Below are positions 23,888-30,189 of a stretch of DNA of 64,000 bases, in pieces; positions within the stretch are counted from its first letter, which is position 1; each line of letters starts with the position of its first letter. Under the pieces are notes generated by a model. The model did not search any database, was not told where the DNA came from, and worked only from the letters and a program-made list of their open reading frames with translations. The stretch comes from Microcella flavibacter. GTDB lineage: Bacteria > Actinomycetota > Actinomycetes > Actinomycetales > Microbacteriaceae. The DNA is taken from positions 1,302,001 to 1,366,000 of the forward strand of contig NZ_CP051299.1 in the NCBI RefSeq assembly GCF_012530535.1, read 5' to 3'. The translations under genes were made by a program, and so were the position numbers.

Positions 23888-24601
23888 ATGACCGCCACCC
23901 CCGACGCCGCGACGCCCAACGAGGGCAAGACCCTCGCGGTCGAGATCGACGGCGCCCGCTACTCGCGCATCCCGCTGCGCACCCACGTCGTGACCGCCGA
24001 CGACGACATCGTCGAGGTCGTGACGCGCTACACGGCGGGCCACCTGCAGCCGGGCGACCTGCTGTTCGTGACCGAGAAGATCGTCGCGATCTCGCAGGGG
24101 CGCTCGTTCCCAATGGAGGACATCGAGCCGCGCAAGCTCGCGACCTTCCTGTCGAAGTACGTGACGAAGACCTCGTTCGGCATCGGCCTGGGCATCCCGG
24201 AGACGATGGAGATGGCGCTGCGCGAGTGCGGCACGCCGCGCATCCTGCTCGCGGCCGGCGTCTCGGCCGTCACGAAGGTCTTCGGCCGTACGGGCGACTT
24301 CTACCGCGTGGCCGGGCCCAAGGCTCGAGGGATCGACGGGCCCACGGCCCACACGATCCCGCCGTACAACCACCAGGTCGTGCTCGTGCCCGAGAACCCG
24401 AAGCGGGTGGCGGCGCAGCTGAAGCGGGCGCTGCCGGTGGCGGTCGACGTCGCCGTCGTCGACATCAACGACCTCGGCGGCAACATCCTCGGGTCGACGG
24501 TCTCGGCGGAGCGCGAGCGGCTGCTCGTGCGCATCCTGAAGGACAACCCGCTCGGTCAGGGGCACGAGAGCACGCCGCTCGGCATCGTCCGCCCCGCATG
24601 A
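23888..24601 (+). CDS. CofE-like (F420-0:L-glutamate ligase superfamily) protein
   Basis: A 237-residue protein resembling CofE, which gamma-ligates glutamate to F420-0. The N-terminal segments IPLRTHVVTADDDIVEVV and QPGDLLFVTEKIVAISQGR follow the family pattern (IPLxxxGDDLA; DGDVLVVTSKVVSKAEGR). The GxDxSN metal/nucleotide segment of true F420 ligases appears as TIPPYN, and no cofC, cofD or fbiC gene is nearby. It is therefore probably a gamma-glutamyl- or amino-acid-ligase paralogue with another substrate. AGGAGA precedes the ATG. Its stop overlaps the start of the flippase gene (ATGA), so the two are translationally coupled. Confidence 0.72.
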   Translation: MTATPDAATPNEGKTLAVEIDGARYSRIPLRTHVVTADDDIVEVVTRYTAGHLQPGDLLFVTEKIVAISQGRSFPMEDIEPRKLATFLSKYVTKTSFGIGLGIPETMEMALRECGTPRILLAAGVSAVTKVFGRTGDFYRVAGPKARGIDGPTAHTIPPYNHQVVLVPENPKRVAAQLKRALPVAVDVAVVDINDLGGNILGSTVSAERERLLVRILKDNPLGQGHESTPLGIVRPA

Positions 24602-26190
24602 GCCTGGCGCGCTCCAGCGCCGTCATCGCCGTCGGCACGCTCGCATCGCGGGCGAGCGGGCTGCTGCGCACGATCGTGCTGGTGGCCGCGATCGGCGCGA
24701 TCGGTCAGGCGAGCGACGCCTTCGCCACCGCGAACCAGCTGCCGAACGCCCTGCTCATGGTCATCTCGACCGGCCTGCTCACGGGCGTGATCGTGCCGCA
24801 CGTCGTCGCCGTGAGCGCGCAGCCCGACGGCGGGCGCTCGGTGCTGCCGAAGCTGCTCACGATGGGGGTCGTGCTGCTGCTGGTCGTCACGATCATCGCG
24901 ACGCTGCTGGCACCGGCGCTCGTCTGGCTGTTCGCGGCGAAGTTCACCGCCGAGCAGCAGGCGCTCGCGACGGCGTTCGCCTACTGGTGCATGCCGCAGC
25001 TGTTCTTCTACGGCATGTTCGCGCTCATGGGCGAGACGCTCAACGCTCGGGGCATCTTCGCGCCGTACGCCTGGGCTCCCATCGTCAACAACGTCGTCTC
25101 GATCGCCGGCTTCGTCGTCGTCATCGCCGTGTTCGGCGCCGATCGCACCGACCTCGACCAGTGGAGCCCGGTCGGCATCGCGGCGCTGGCGGGCACCGCG
25201 ACCCTCGGCATCATCGCGCAGACCCTGCTGCTGCTGCTGTTCTGGCGGCGGACGGGCATCCCGCTGCGGTTCGACTTCCACTGGCGCGGCATGGGGCTGC
25301 GCGGGCTCAGCCGCCGCGCGGGCTGGACCTTCGCGACCATGCTCGTGGGGCTCTCCGCCGGCATCCTGCAGCAGCAGCAGATCTCCGACGTCTCCGGCGA
25401 TGACGCCTCGGTGTTCGTCTGGCAGAACGCCTGGCTCGTCTACATGCTGCCCTACTCGCTCATCGTGCTGTCGATCGGAACGCCGTACTTCACGCGCATC
25501 AGCGAGCACGTCGCGGCGGAGCGCCACGAGGAGCTGCGCGCCGACATCGACAGCGCGATCCGCGTGCTCGGCCTCTTCATCGTCGTCGCTGCCGCCGCCG
25601 TGATCGCCGCCGCCGCCCCGGCGGCGCGCATCTTCACGAACAACACGGCCGACGCCCTCGCCTCCGCCCCGGTGCTCATCGCGTTCCTTTTCGCGCTGAC
25701 GCCGATGGCGGTGCTGTTCGTCGTGCAGCGCACCTTCTACGCCTACGGCGACACCCGCACGCCCTTCTGGTTCACCCTCGTGCAGGGCTCGCTCGTCGTC
25801 ATCCTCACCTTCGTCGCGGTGGCGCTCGCGAGCGACGCCACGCTGACCGCCGCCGTGGCCGCGGGGCAGACCGTCGCGGGCATCGTGCAGCTGGCGCTCG
25901 CGGCCGTGCTGCTGCGCCGCCGCATCGGCCCCTTCGGTCTCGGTCGCGCGCTCGGCGCGCTCGCGCGCTTCGCCGTGGCCGCGATCCCGGCGGGCGCGGC
26001 CGGCTGGGGCGCGTACCTGATGAGCGGCGGCCCCGAGGGGTGGATGCTCGCGGACAAGCTGTTCGGAGCGCTCGGCACGCTCGTGATCGGGCTCGTCGCC
26101 GTCGTCGTCTACGTCGCCGTGCTGGCCGCGCTGCGCGCGCCGGAGCTGCGGCTGGGCATCGGTCTGCTGCGCGGCCGCTTCGGCCGCTGA
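24598..26190 (+). CDS. MurJ/MviN-type lipid-linked substrate flippase
   Basis: A 530-residue polytopic membrane protein of the MOP exporter superfamily with about 14 helices. It begins with the MurJ-like amphipathic start RSSAVIAVGTLASRASGLLRTIV and has LPNALLMVISTGLLTGVIVP, NARGIFAPYAWAPIVNN and LVQRTFYAYGDTRTPF-like QRTFYAYGDTRTP, all typical of MurJ. It could flip lipid II, but its coupling to a CofE-like ligase and its position beside ATP-grasp and racemase genes suggest a specialised lipid-linked precursor. Whether the genome has another murJ (near trxB in most actinobacteria) cannot be seen here. It is convergent with the first ATP-grasp gene. Confidence 0.85.
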   Translation: MSLARSSAVIAVGTLASRASGLLRTIVLVAAIGAIGQASDAFATANQLPNALLMVISTGLLTGVIVPHVVAVSAQPDGGRSVLPKLLTMGVVLLLVVTIIATLLAPALVWLFAAKFTAEQQALATAFAYWCMPQLFFYGMFALMGETLNARGIFAPYAWAPIVNNVVSIAGFVVVIAVFGADRTDLDQWSPVGIAALAGTATLGIIAQTLLLLLFWRRTGIPLRFDFHWRGMGLRGLSRRAGWTFATMLVGLSAGILQQQQISDVSGDDASVFVWQNAWLVYMLPYSLIVLSIGTPYFTRISEHVAAERHEELRADIDSAIRVLGLFIVVAAAAVIAAAAPAARIFTNNTADALASAPVLIAFLFALTPMAVLFVVQRTFYAYGDTRTPFWFTLVQGSLVVILTFVAVALASDATLTAAVAAGQTVAGIVQLALAAVLLRRRIGPFGLGRALGALARFAVAAIPAGAAGWGAYLMSGGPEGWMLADKLFGALGTLVIGLVAVVVYVAVLAALRAPELRLGIGLLRGRFGR

Positions 26191-27374: not shown

Positions 27375-28403
27375 ATGGCAATCTCTCTGAAGGCGCGGGC
27401 GCGCTACCTCGCGAACCGGGCCCGATCGTTCCGGCTCGGCCGCGTCTGGGGCTTCGCCACCCAGATCTCGAAGGAGCAGGGCAAGCACCCCGTGCCGGTG
27501 CTCGTCGACATGCTGTACTCCGCCGCGTTCCGCGACACGGCCTACCTCGACTACTACGAGGCCGATTTCGCGCTGCTCACCCGCGCCGAGCGCGCGACCT
27601 TCATGACCTCGCTGCTGCAGCACCACCTCGCGACCGCGCTCAACGACCGCGAGGCCTCGAAGACCTTCGAGAACAAGATCGCCTTCAACACGGCCTTCGC
27701 CGAGTTCCTGCACCGGGAGTGGATCGAGCTCGGCACGGCCGACGCCGAGGCGCTGCGCGCCTTCGCCGAGCGACACCCCGTCATCATCGCGAAGGTGCCG
27801 GTCAGCCGGGAGGGCAAGGGCGTCTTCCGCTACGACACGGCCGAGGTCTCCGACTGGCCGGCGTTCCACGCGGACCTGGTCGAGAAGGGGCAGGTGCTCA
27901 TCGAGCAGCCCATCGTCCAGCATCCCTATCTCGCGAAGTACTGCGCCGGCACGGTCAACACCACGCGCATCACCACCTACTTCGACGGCGAGACGGTGCG
28001 GCCCGTCGTCGTCGCGCAGAAGTTCGGCCGCGGCGCGGTGAGCGACCAGTTCACCTGGGGCGGCTTCTTCACGATGCTCGACGAGCACGGGCGCGCGGTC
28101 GGCCCGGGCCACACCGGGCGGCACAAGAGCCGCTACGAGACCCACCCCGATTCCGGCGAGTCGATCGTCGACTTCCAGCTGCCGCTCTGGGACGAGGCGC
28201 TCGCCATGCTCGACGAGGCGGCGCGGCGCATCCCCGAGGTGCCCTACGTGGGCTGGGACGTCGCCATCGGCCCCGACCGACCGGTGCTGCTCGAGGGCAA
28301 CTGGATCCCCGGCCTCTACGAGACGCGCGTGAGCGCGACCGGCATCCGGCGGGGCACGCGGCCGCTGCACGAGCGGGCCATCCGCGACGCCGGGACGCGG
28401 TGA
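27375..28403 (+). CDS. Sugar-transfer-associated ATP-grasp ligase (second paralogue)
   Basis: A 342-residue paralogue of the ATP-grasp gene at 26207, first in a three-gene operon with two racemase-like genes (stop and next start overlap as GTGA). Matching landmarks: VIIAKVPVSREGKGV (ATP lysine), TVNTTRITTYF, HPDSGESIVDFQLP and YVGWDVAIGPDRPVLLEGNW with the catalytic Asp, Glu and Asn. Differences from the first copy (WTWGG-like FTWGGFFT instead of NFAGGGMF, and a WIPGLYE end instead of HNSSVFQ) suggest a different acceptor. Joint transcription with the racemases suggests a D-amino acid substrate, which is inference. Confidence 0.85.
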   Translation: MAISLKARARYLANRARSFRLGRVWGFATQISKEQGKHPVPVLVDMLYSAAFRDTAYLDYYEADFALLTRAERATFMTSLLQHHLATALNDREASKTFENKIAFNTAFAEFLHREWIELGTADAEALRAFAERHPVIIAKVPVSREGKGVFRYDTAEVSDWPAFHADLVEKGQVLIEQPIVQHPYLAKYCAGTVNTTRITTYFDGETVRPVVVAQKFGRGAVSDQFTWGGFFTMLDEHGRAVGPGHTGRHKSRYETHPDSGESIVDFQLPLWDEALAMLDEAARRIPEVPYVGWDVAIGPDRPVLLEGNWIPGLYETRVSATGIRRGTRPLHERAIRDAGTR

Positions 28404-29098
28404 GCGCACCCGGTGCGGGCGGCCCGCTGACGGCGCCCGTCCTTCGCCTCTCCCGGTCGGCGCTGCGGTCGAACGCGGCCGTCCTCGCCGCGAGCGACCC
28501 CGAGGCGGTCGCCGATCTGCGACGGGATGCCCGGGGCTGCGGCCTCGAGCGCATCGGCCGGGTGCTCGCCGAGGCCGGGCTGCGCCGCGCGGTGCTCGAC
28601 GAGGCCGACGTCGCCGCGGCGCGCGCCCTCGGGCTGGAGCCGGCCGAGCCGCCCGCCGACCTCGACCTCGACCTGCTGCTCGGCCTGTCCGGGTCGGGCG
28701 GGTCGCCGGTCTGCACGCTCGTCTCCTCGGTGGCCTCGACCAAGGCGCTGCGCGCGGGGGAGGGCGTCTCGTACGGCCTCACCCACCGGGCGGCGCACGA
28801 CACCCGCATCGCGCTCGTGCCCGGCGGCTACAGCCACGGCATCGTGCGCGCACTCGGCAACGCCGCCGCGGTGGCGATCGAGGGGCGTCGCCGTCCGATC
28901 GTCGGGCGCGTGGCGATGGACGTCCTGGTCGTCGATCTCGGCGACCTCGACGTCGCCGTCGGCGCACCGGTCGTGCTGCTCGGGGCGGCCGAGCGCGGCG
29001 AGCCCGTGCTCGATGAGTGGGCCGCCATCACCGGCATGACGGGGCCGGAGCTGCTCACCGCGATCGCGCTGCGCTGCGCGCGGGAGGACGTCGCATGA
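28400..29098 (+). CDS. Alanine-racemase-like subunit keeping the C-terminal domain, lacking the PLP lysine
   Basis: A 232-residue protein against about 370 for alanine racemases. Its C-terminal half is a recognisable racemase C-domain: GVSYGLTHRA with Tyr125 (the catalytic-tyrosine motif), ALVPGGYSHGI, IVGRVAMDV and LLGAAERGEP. Its N-terminal part is a shrunken barrel remnant: LRLSRSALRSNAAVLA resembles the usual start, and the PLP-lysine motif VVKADAYGHG appears as DLRRDARGCG, with Lys replaced by Arg41 and Tyr by Arg45. It cannot bind PLP covalently alone. The start is GTG 28400, overlapping the previous stop, and the stop overlaps the next gene's ATG. It probably pairs with that product. 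Confidence 0.8.
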   Translation: MSAPGAGGPLTAPVLRLSRSALRSNAAVLAASDPEAVADLRRDARGCGLERIGRVLAEAGLRRAVLDEADVAAARALGLEPAEPPADLDLDLLLGLSGSGGSPVCTLVSSVASTKALRAGEGVSYGLTHRAAHDTRIALVPGGYSHGIVRALGNAAAVAIEGRRRPIVGRVAMDVLVVDLGDLDVAVGAPVVLLGAAERGEPVLDEWAAITGMTGPELLTAIALRCAREDVA

Positions 29099-30189
29099 GC
29101 GCCCCCGCCGCCTACAGCGCCCCCGCGCTCGTCGTCGACCACACCGCGCTGCGCGACAACCTCGAGGCGGTGCGTGCGCGCGTCGCGCCCGCCGAACTCA
29201 TCCTCGTCGTGAAGGACGACGCCTACGGGCAGGGGCTCGCGCCGGTCGTCCGCACGGCGATCGACGCCGGCGTCACGAGCTTCGGCGTCTCCGACCTCGG
29301 CACCGCGCTCGCGGTGCGGAGGCTGGTGGGGGAGGGACCCCGCATCATCGCCTGGCCGGCGGGAGCATCCCCGTTGCTCGGCGCCGCCGTCGACGCCGCC
29401 ATCGATCTCGGTCTCGGCGACGCCGCGCAGCTCGAGGAGGTGGCCGCGATCGCGGCGGCCCGCGGCGCGACCGCCCGCGTGCACCTCAAGGTCGACACCG
29501 GTCTGCACCGCAACGGCTTCCGCCCCGAGGAGTGGTCGCCCGCCGTCGCCCGCGCGCGCGTGCACGAGGAGGCCGGGGCGATCGTCATCGTCGGCGCCTG
29601 GAGCCATATCGCCGAGGCGAGCGACGCCGAGGACGACGCGGCGCGGGCGCTCTTCGACGCGGCGCTCGAGCAGCTCGCCGTCGCCGGCTGCCGCATCGAG
29701 CTGCGCCACCTGGCGGCGAGCGCGGCGGCCTTCGCCCGCCCGGAGTTCCGCTACGACGCGGTGCGCATCGGGGCCTTCTGCTACGGCGTGCGCTCCGCCG
29801 ACGGTCCGCGGGCGGCCGAGCTCGGCCTGCGCCCGGTGGCGGCGCTGCGGGGTGCGGTCACGGCCGTCGGCGAGGACGAGGTGCTCGTCGGGATCGGATC
29901 GCTCGACGGCGTGCCGTCGACGCTCGCGGGGCGGGTCGAGGTGGGGACGCCCGAGGGCCCGCGCGCGCTCCAGCGGGTCGACGCCGATACCCTCGCGGTG
30001 GCGCGCTGGCCGGGCGCGGCCGTCGGCGATCCGGTGACCGTCTTCGGCCCCGGCGGCCAGGGCGAGCGCTCGGCCACGACGCTGGCCGAGGCGATCGGGA
30101 CGATCGGGGAGGAGATCCTGCTGCGGGTCTCGCCGCGCATCCCGCGCGTGCACCTGCCGGTCGGCATCGACCGGTCGCACCGACCTTAA
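29095..30189 (+). CDS. Alanine-racemase-like subunit keeping the PLP lysine, lacking the C-domain tyrosine
   Basis: A 364-residue PLP-dependent racemase fold. The N-terminal barrel is intact: LILVVKDDAYGQGL with PLP-binding Lys40, VHLKVDTGLHRNGF, GAWSHIAEA and VRIGAFCYGV. The C-domain is degenerate: the segment that should hold GVSYGxTWR is missing, running from LRGAVTAVGEDEV straight to LVGIGSLDGVP, and the MD of GRVxMD reads RVDADT. In known racemases Lys and Tyr come from opposite subunits of a dimer; here each gene of the pair supplies one. It overlaps the preceding gene by ATGA and is followed by a strong terminator. Confidence 0.83.
   Translation: MSAPAAYSAPALVVDHTALRDNLEAVRARVAPAELILVVKDDAYGQGLAPVVRTAIDAGVTSFGVSDLGTALAVRRLVGEGPRIIAWPAGASPLLGAAVDAAIDLGLGDAAQLEEVAAIAAARGATARVHLKVDTGLHRNGFRPEEWSPAVARARVHEEAGAIVIVGAWSHIAEASDAEDDAARALFDAALEQLAVAGCRIELRHLAASAAAFARPEFRYDAVRIGAFCYGVRSADGPRAAELGLRPVAALRGAVTAVGEDEVLVGIGSLDGVPSTLAGRVEVGTPEGPRALQRVDADTLAVARWPGAAVGDPVTVFGPGGQGERSATTLAEAIGTIGEEILLRVSPRIPRVHLPVGIDRSHRP

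Follow-up and report, generated by a model that had tools for sequence, protein, structure and literature searches.

Alanine racemase (Alr/DadX, TIGR00492; PDB 1xfc, 1vfs) is a pyridoxal phosphate (PLP) enzyme of fold type III with a composite active site at the subunit interface. The partner subunit contributes Tyr265 and Met312 to each active site, and Tyr354 stands on the same subunit as the PLP lysine, Lys39. We analyzed a 64,000-nucleotide stretch of the Microcella flavibacter genome (hereafter the window; contig NZ_CP051299.1, positions 1,302,001 to 1,366,000), in which two adjacent genes, A and B, encode proteins with the barrel and C-terminal domain (C-domain) folds and the active-site motifs of alanine racemase. 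Unlike in that enzyme, the halves of the site are on two proteins, no chain carries both Lys39 and Tyr265, and an acid takes the place of Tyr354. We think it likely that A and B act as an obligate heterodimer, whose single composite site probably racemizes a diamino acid for group B peptidoglycan.

Reciprocal loss of active-site residues in two racemase-like genes

Genes A and B overlap by four bases (ATGA), and the source genome (G000, 2.62 Mb) also encodes a canonical racemase. Residue numbering follows Geobacillus alanine racemase, and the Geobacillus-type numbers given to the A and B active-site positions are those we take to correspond; position 354 was placed through alignment to Tyr364 of the Mycobacterium tuberculosis enzyme. 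The genes and their key residues are as follows.

28400..29098, + strand: gene A ("Tyr subunit", alanine-racemase C-domain and barrel vestige), GTG start, 232 amino acids (aa)
28520..28522, + strand: A Arg41, at the position of the PLP lysine (Lys39), motif DLRRDARGCG
28772..28774, + strand: A Tyr125 (Tyr265, second catalytic base), motif GVSYG
28916..28921, + strand: A Met173-Asp174 (Met312-Asp313), motif VAMD
29095..30189, + strand: gene B ("Lys subunit", full PLP barrel and a C-domain without the Tyr265 segment), ATG start, 364 aa
29212..29214, + strand: B Lys40 (PLP lysine, Lys39), motif VVKDDAYGQG
30109..30111, + strand: B Glu339, an acid where Tyr354 is expected, by alignment

Gene A matches Ala_racemase_C (PF00842) only, with 114 bits over profile positions 1-125 of 127 and no match to Ala_racemase_N (PF01168). 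Gene B matches Ala_racemase_N with 160.8 bits over profile positions 1-219, and Ala_racemase_C with 34.8 bits over positions 36-126 of 127 only (Pfam cut-offs of 24.1 bits for the N and 25 bits for the C profile). Both proteins stay under the 168-bit equivalog cut-off of NCBIfam TIGR00492, B with 142 and A with 102.9 bits. Motifs and Pfam matches agree with the original prediction, a reading of the bare sequence, that A keeps Tyr125 in GVSYG as well as VAMD, has Arg41 in place of the lysine and retains little of the barrel. The same prediction held for B in that Lys40 is kept and the SYG segment is gone. It had also assumed loss of the whole MD motif, which is correct for the Met only: the segment reads VDADTL, and the aligned Asp is retained, as in 32 of the 42 B proteins described next.

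Conservation was counted in 40 A and 42 B proteins aligned with a canonical racemase. Locus L069, where A is cut by a contig end, was excluded from both alignments, as was L055 (genome G026), which was discarded as an A+B pair since both of its genes are full length. The set is also without the A proteins of L107 and L108 and without L145, and includes the B proteins of L107 and L108. All 40 A proteins have Tyr265 and Met312, and 35 have Asp313, with Asn at that position in the other five. None has Lys39, which is replaced by Arg in 27 and by other residues in 10 and falls in a gap in three; R41 is invariant across the 22-row alignment A2. The B proteins present the complementary picture. Lys39, Tyr43, the lysine of KVDTG, Arg136, His166 and Arg219 are found in 42/42, Tyr265 in 0/42 and Met312 in a single one (L108). 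Position 354 is Asp in 25 and Glu in 16, thus acidic in all 41 readable B proteins (one ends before the position), and varied in A. No A (0/40 with Lys39) and no B (0/42 with Tyr265) therefore combines the two catalytic bases on one chain. Such reciprocal retention, together with an acid kept at 354 in B only, is as expected if a single site is made of the B barrel and the A C-domain. The Asp313 retained in B falls outside this prediction and may be structural.

We picture A and B as the two subunits of a fold-III PLP racemase. The barrel of B would hold PLP through Lys40, and the C-domain of A would dock on it as the partner-subunit C-domain does in alanine racemase, bringing in Tyr125 as second base together with the MD-motif Met. 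The C-domain of B itself, having lost Tyr265 and Met312, would face no working barrel. At the same-subunit position 354, the Asp or Glu of B is a possible partner for the amine on a diamino-acid side chain. A complex of A with B seems to us highly probable, and racemase activity of the pair only slightly less so.

Alternatively, B could be active alone, by one-base or otherwise altered chemistry, with A as a non-catalytic regulatory or stabilizing partner. Dead paralogues are often regulators, and the PLP-site residues that we examined persist in B, as does Asp313 in most cases. However, A preserves the cross-interface Tyr265 and Met312 in 40/40 proteins though most of its barrel is gone, and a catalytic Tyr is unexpected in a purely structural partner. 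We rate this explanation as improbable.

Co-occurrence of A and B in Microbacteriaceae

We searched 150 Microbacteriaceae genomes and then read stretches of up to 15 kb. Adjacent A and B genes are present in at least 44 of these family genomes, that of the window included. In the loci read, neither gene turned up without the other. Three pairs are cut by contig ends (L037, L069 and L145). Apparent cases of B without A in genomes G030, G104 and G038 were discarded after tblastn located A in all three. The four-base overlap of A and B, from which the original prediction expected stoichiometric production, recurs in 28 of the 39 pairs measured. The adjacency and co-occurrence that the original prediction calls for are supported by the loci read.

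The gene set is flanked by the sigma factor RpoD, a gyrase-B-type topoisomerase subunit, which we call ParE from its context, and a ParC-like partner. In a second set of 80 loci from named records, tblastn detected A+B in 45, one of them (L235) counted on a weak, overlapping A match; none was detected in 29 loci with ParE in view, and six loci were cut by contig ends. The named records with A+B comprise Leifsonia, Diaminobutyricibacter tongyongensis and Pseudoclavibacter, together with metagenome-assembled genomes (MAGs) of Schumannella, Pontimonas, Rhodoglobus, Salinibacterium and others. In an order-wide sample of 198 genomes, 14 of which belong to the family of the window, A-like short genes occur in at least seven genomes, all of that family among the matches listed.

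Selection and predicted folds

The extensive deletions in A and the motif losses in both genes could also mean that A and B are remnants of decaying racemase duplicates. The ratio of nonsynonymous to synonymous substitution rates (dN/dS), estimated in Leifsonia and Pseudoclavibacter relatives, is 0.08-0.30 for A (17 close pairs) and 0.075-0.24 for B (25 closest pairs). The AlphaFold2 single-chain model of A has a predicted local distance difference test score (pLDDT) of 86.4, and its best PDB matches are alanine racemases, with gappy alignments and template modelling (TM) scores by query length of 0.51-0.80. For B, the single-chain model reaches a pLDDT of 91.9, and the best matches are again alanine racemases, with a TM score of 0.90 to 1vfs. 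The motif pattern in the 40 A and 42 B proteins and the low dN/dS of A indicate more than chance or a single decaying gene. With A under purifying selection, invariant motifs, co-occurrence in at least 44 genomes and confident folds, decay is hardly credible. A sequencing or frame error as the reason why A lacks most of its barrel was likewise discarded, because the homologues display every stage of the loss.

A second, separate split, that of the canonical racemase

In two genomes of one genus, G077 and G140, the canonical racemase locus just before TsaE is itself split (L146:5989-7874 and L147:6607-8477). The first gene there encodes 370 aa, with Lys39 and Tyr354 present and the Tyr265 segment absent, and the second encodes 253-258 aa, with VSYG and AMD present and no lysine. 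In the barrel tree, the 370-aa protein sits with canonical Alr, and among the splits this case alone is clearly separate. Each of the two genomes, with two split pairs, has four Ala_racemase_C domains. Two are complete and belong to the barrel-poor genes; the other two are in the barrel genes and begin only at profile position 29-33. None of the four is in an intact gene, so this census leaves no intact racemase in G077 or G140. No D-amino-acid aminotransferase above the NCBIfam cut-off was found in either genome, and weaker class IV relatives are present. A split pair must therefore be active in these organisms, unless D-Ala is made otherwise. The obligate heterodimer advanced in the original prediction gains support from G077 and G140, as it does from the adjacency of A and B and from the reciprocal loss of Lys39, Tyr265 and, in all B proteins but one, Met312.

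A graded series and a full-length relative

The A proteins form a graded series. The long forms (L056, L061, L066 and L067; 344-389 aa) have a near-complete barrel in which Lys39 is replaced, many intermediate forms have a barrel remnant reading RADAYGHG or similar, and the shortest (L060, L062, L064 and L065; 176-182 aa) consist of the C-domain alone. On the other side of the pair, the B protein of L106 still has the Tyr265 segment, with Tyr265 itself substituted. The Arg that replaces the lost lysine in 27 of the 40 A proteins often lies within a surviving ADAYGHG motif, and this vestigial strand may be structural.

A full-length relative, Alr2, has Lys39, Tyr265, the MD motif and Asp or Glu at 354, and adjoins canonical Alr. 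It was verified in 16 of the 150 genomes, none of which is among the 44 with A+B (hypergeometric P of 0.003, a value that ignores shared ancestry and covers only the family racemases that were read). Alr2 stands in place of A+B in two Clavibacter, three Subtercola, two Herbiconiux and two Planctomonas genomes. In the barrel tree, 39 B rows and 15 Alr2 rows make up one group separate from canonical racemases, with a support of 98 in the Shimodaira-Hasegawa-like approximate likelihood ratio test (SH-aLRT). Within this group the two are interleaved in two subclades, one of 16 B with 10 Alr2 (support 89) and one of 22 B with five Alr2 (support 99), and one B lies outside both. In the C-domain tree, the A proteins of the two B subclades separate into two groups supported at 91 and 90, and the C-domain of Alr2 goes with canonical Alr. 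This placement fits Alr2 either as the unsplit ancestor or as a gene rebuilt by recombination with the adjacent Alr, between which the tree does not distinguish.

Three further observations concern racemases other than A and B. Alr2 frames of 564-649 aa in L248, L252, L253 and L257 (Clavibacter and Subtercola), where TsaE was not called apart, may be Alr2-TsaE fusions. The canonical Alr of the second Alr2 group (L110-L115) has Met-Asn for Met-Asp, like five A proteins. A further racemase paralogue with His at 354 (TIEHEI, TIEHEL or TIAHEI) lies off the Alr and A+B loci in L148, L150, L153, L155, L157 and L161.

Cell-wall genes next to A and B

In the window, A and B are accompanied by the following genes, of which the ATP-grasp gene at 27375-28403 overlaps A by four bases (GTGA).

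27375..28403, + strand: ATP-grasp ligase (ATPgrasp_ST), first gene of an apparent operon with A and B, PF14397 at 123 bits
26207..27244, - strand: second ATP-grasp ligase (ATPgrasp_ST), divergent, PF14397 at 141 bits for a longer frame
24598..26190, + strand: MurJ-type lipid II flippase, PF03023 at 225 bits
23888..24601, + strand: CofE-like protein (F420-0:gamma-glutamyl ligase family), PF01996 at 48.8 bits, far under the CofE equivalog cut-off

Homologues of MurT and GatD adjoin A+B in 24 of 40 loci. The catalytic Cys of GatD, whose position was set by alignment to Staphylococcus aureus GatD, is absent from each of the 25 copies in the first set (Gly in 13, Ala in 10, Thr in 2; for example L043:8915-9631) and in 61/61 copies from the named loci, among L166-L245 (Gly in 33, Ala in 25, Ser in 3). 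A CofE-like protein takes the place of MurT-GatD in 13 of the 40 loci, mostly with ATP-grasp genes (10/40), and the window is such a locus; at L068 the CofE-like protein and MurT are both present. Of the 150 genomes, 21 have strong CofE-like matches (more than 250 bits), and all 21 are among the 32 MurT-negative genomes (no MurT match at E 1e-15). Of three genomes with weaker CofE-like matches (G053, G123 and G147), two do have a MurT match. The CofE-like protein is a possible non-homologous replacement of MurT-GatD.

The loss of the Cys from GatD suggests that the MurT-GatD pair has taken on a new task, ligation of an amino acid in place of D-Glu amidation. The linkage of an amino acid to the alpha-carboxyl of D-Glu is the defining trait of group B peptidoglycan. 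Taken together, a ligase pair that no longer takes ammonia from glutamine and a neighbouring racemase with an acidic position 354 point to an amino acid as the group attached to this carboxyl. The likely role of A and B would be to provide the bridge of group B peptidoglycan with the D form of a diamino acid, be it 2,4-diaminobutyrate, ornithine or lysine. The adjacent ligase, either MurT with the dead GatD or a CofE-like/ATP-grasp set as in the window, would attach this D-diamino acid to the D-Glu alpha-carboxyl. We see the arguments for and against this role of the neighbouring ligase as about balanced.

The substrate of the pair

The original prediction had raised a possible new substrate. 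Some support for this comes from the acidic residue at 354 and from the cell-wall genes nearby; the substrate itself is what we infer, and we give a diamino acid about an even chance. Leifsonia and Pseudoclavibacter are diaminobutyrate genera. Excerpts of published descriptions report a diaminobutyrate wall for Clavibacter (PMC9603630), a type B2gamma wall with diaminobutyrate for Subtercola (PMC5945732) and D- and L-diaminobutyrate in the wall of Herbiconiux (PMC10011130), and Alr2 was found in genomes of all three genera. For Salinibacterium, represented among the A+B records by a MAG, the cited part of PMC7033078 gives Lys and Orn rather than 2,4-diaminobutyrate (Dab), which fits a diamino acid as substrate, not Dab alone.

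Several observations weigh against our interpretation. The reciprocity is imperfect, with Asp313 still in those 32 of 42 B proteins and Met312 in the B of L108. Group B peptidoglycan is described as family-wide in Microbacteriaceae, yet about 90 of the 150 family genomes are without A+B and without a verified Alr2, as far as the part of their racemases that was read. Two MAGs count against the proposed substrate. The wall of Rhodoluna lacicola contains D-Dab according to an excerpt of its description (PMC4156110), yet only one racemase is present in the Rhodoluna limnophila MAG, and its position 354 is Tyr. Similarly, the genus Glaciihabitans is entered with Dab in the tabulated part of PMC7033078, yet in a Glaciihabitans MAG A+B is absent and the only racemase carries Tyr354. 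Either some lineages make D-Dab differently or these MAGs are incomplete.

The same two MAGs, which lack both A+B and Alr2 despite the Dab reported for their genera, also speak for a different function, in which the composite site acts on a small amino acid and the pair backs up Alr by racemizing alanine (or serine). The fold and catalytic residues are those of alanine racemase, and in G077 and G140 the independently split canonical pair is the sole alanine racemase candidate. On the other hand, G077 and G140 apart, a canonical Alr is also present in every A+B genome whose Alr was read, that of the window among them. Position 354 of canonical Alr is Tyr, or Trp in L159, L263 and L264 (L275 is unreadable), in contrast to the acid in all readable B proteins, and the locus adjoins peptidoglycan genes. 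We consider a small-amino-acid racemase unlikely, if less so than a B protein that acts alone.

In its widest form, our explanation is that Microbacteriaceae have repeatedly derived a heterodimeric, one-site racemase from a homodimeric one with two sites by reciprocal loss of half-sites, and that one genus did so with canonical Alr. A+B and its unsplit counterpart Alr2 would then supply the D-diamino acids of group B peptidoglycan, as the PLP-dependent racemase so far missing there, and their product would go to a ligase (MurT with dead GatD, or CofE with ATP-grasp) through which D-Glu receives an amino acid rather than ammonia. We advance this wider proposal tentatively, as somewhat less than evenly probable.

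Comparison with known systems

The intact Alr2, the substituted intermediate, the long A with a dead barrel and the A reduced to its C-domain make up a natural series. It illustrates a possible passage from a symmetric two-site homodimer to an asymmetric one-site heterodimer, in at least two separate cases. The locus also suggests candidates for two steps in the assembly of group B peptidoglycan, the synthesis of the D-diamino acid and its attachment to D-Glu. Literature searches on heterodimeric racemases, group B peptidoglycan and MurT/GatD in Microbacteriaceae, with thin coverage of subscription journals, retrieved, among the matches listed, no paper on a split alanine racemase or on these genes, and, within the same coverage, none assigning genes to D-diamino-acid synthesis or its attachment to D-Glu in group B peptidoglycan.

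Among paralogous PLP heterodimers, serine palmitoyltransferase LCB1/LCB2 of fold type I is comparable, as one subunit has lost the PLP lysine yet contributes to the site. A and B have a different fold, and we know of no reciprocal loss of two catalytic bases in LCB1/LCB2. Trypanosomal dead-paralogue activators and the pair of ornithine decarboxylase, also a fold-III enzyme, and antizyme inhibitor are further enzyme/pseudoenzyme paralogue pairs. There, the dead partner activates or titrates the enzyme, whereas here A would hold one of the catalytic bases. The MurT/GatD lipid II isoglutaminyl synthase has its homologous pair beside A+B in the 24 of 40 loci mentioned above, but with the catalytic Cys of GatD absent. 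Finally, PddB is described, in the excerpt cited, as a DapF-like, PLP-independent and cofactor-free 2,4-diaminobutyrate racemase (PMC8225329). PddB would share its substrate with the one proposed for A and B, and differs from them in working without a cofactor (PMC8225329).

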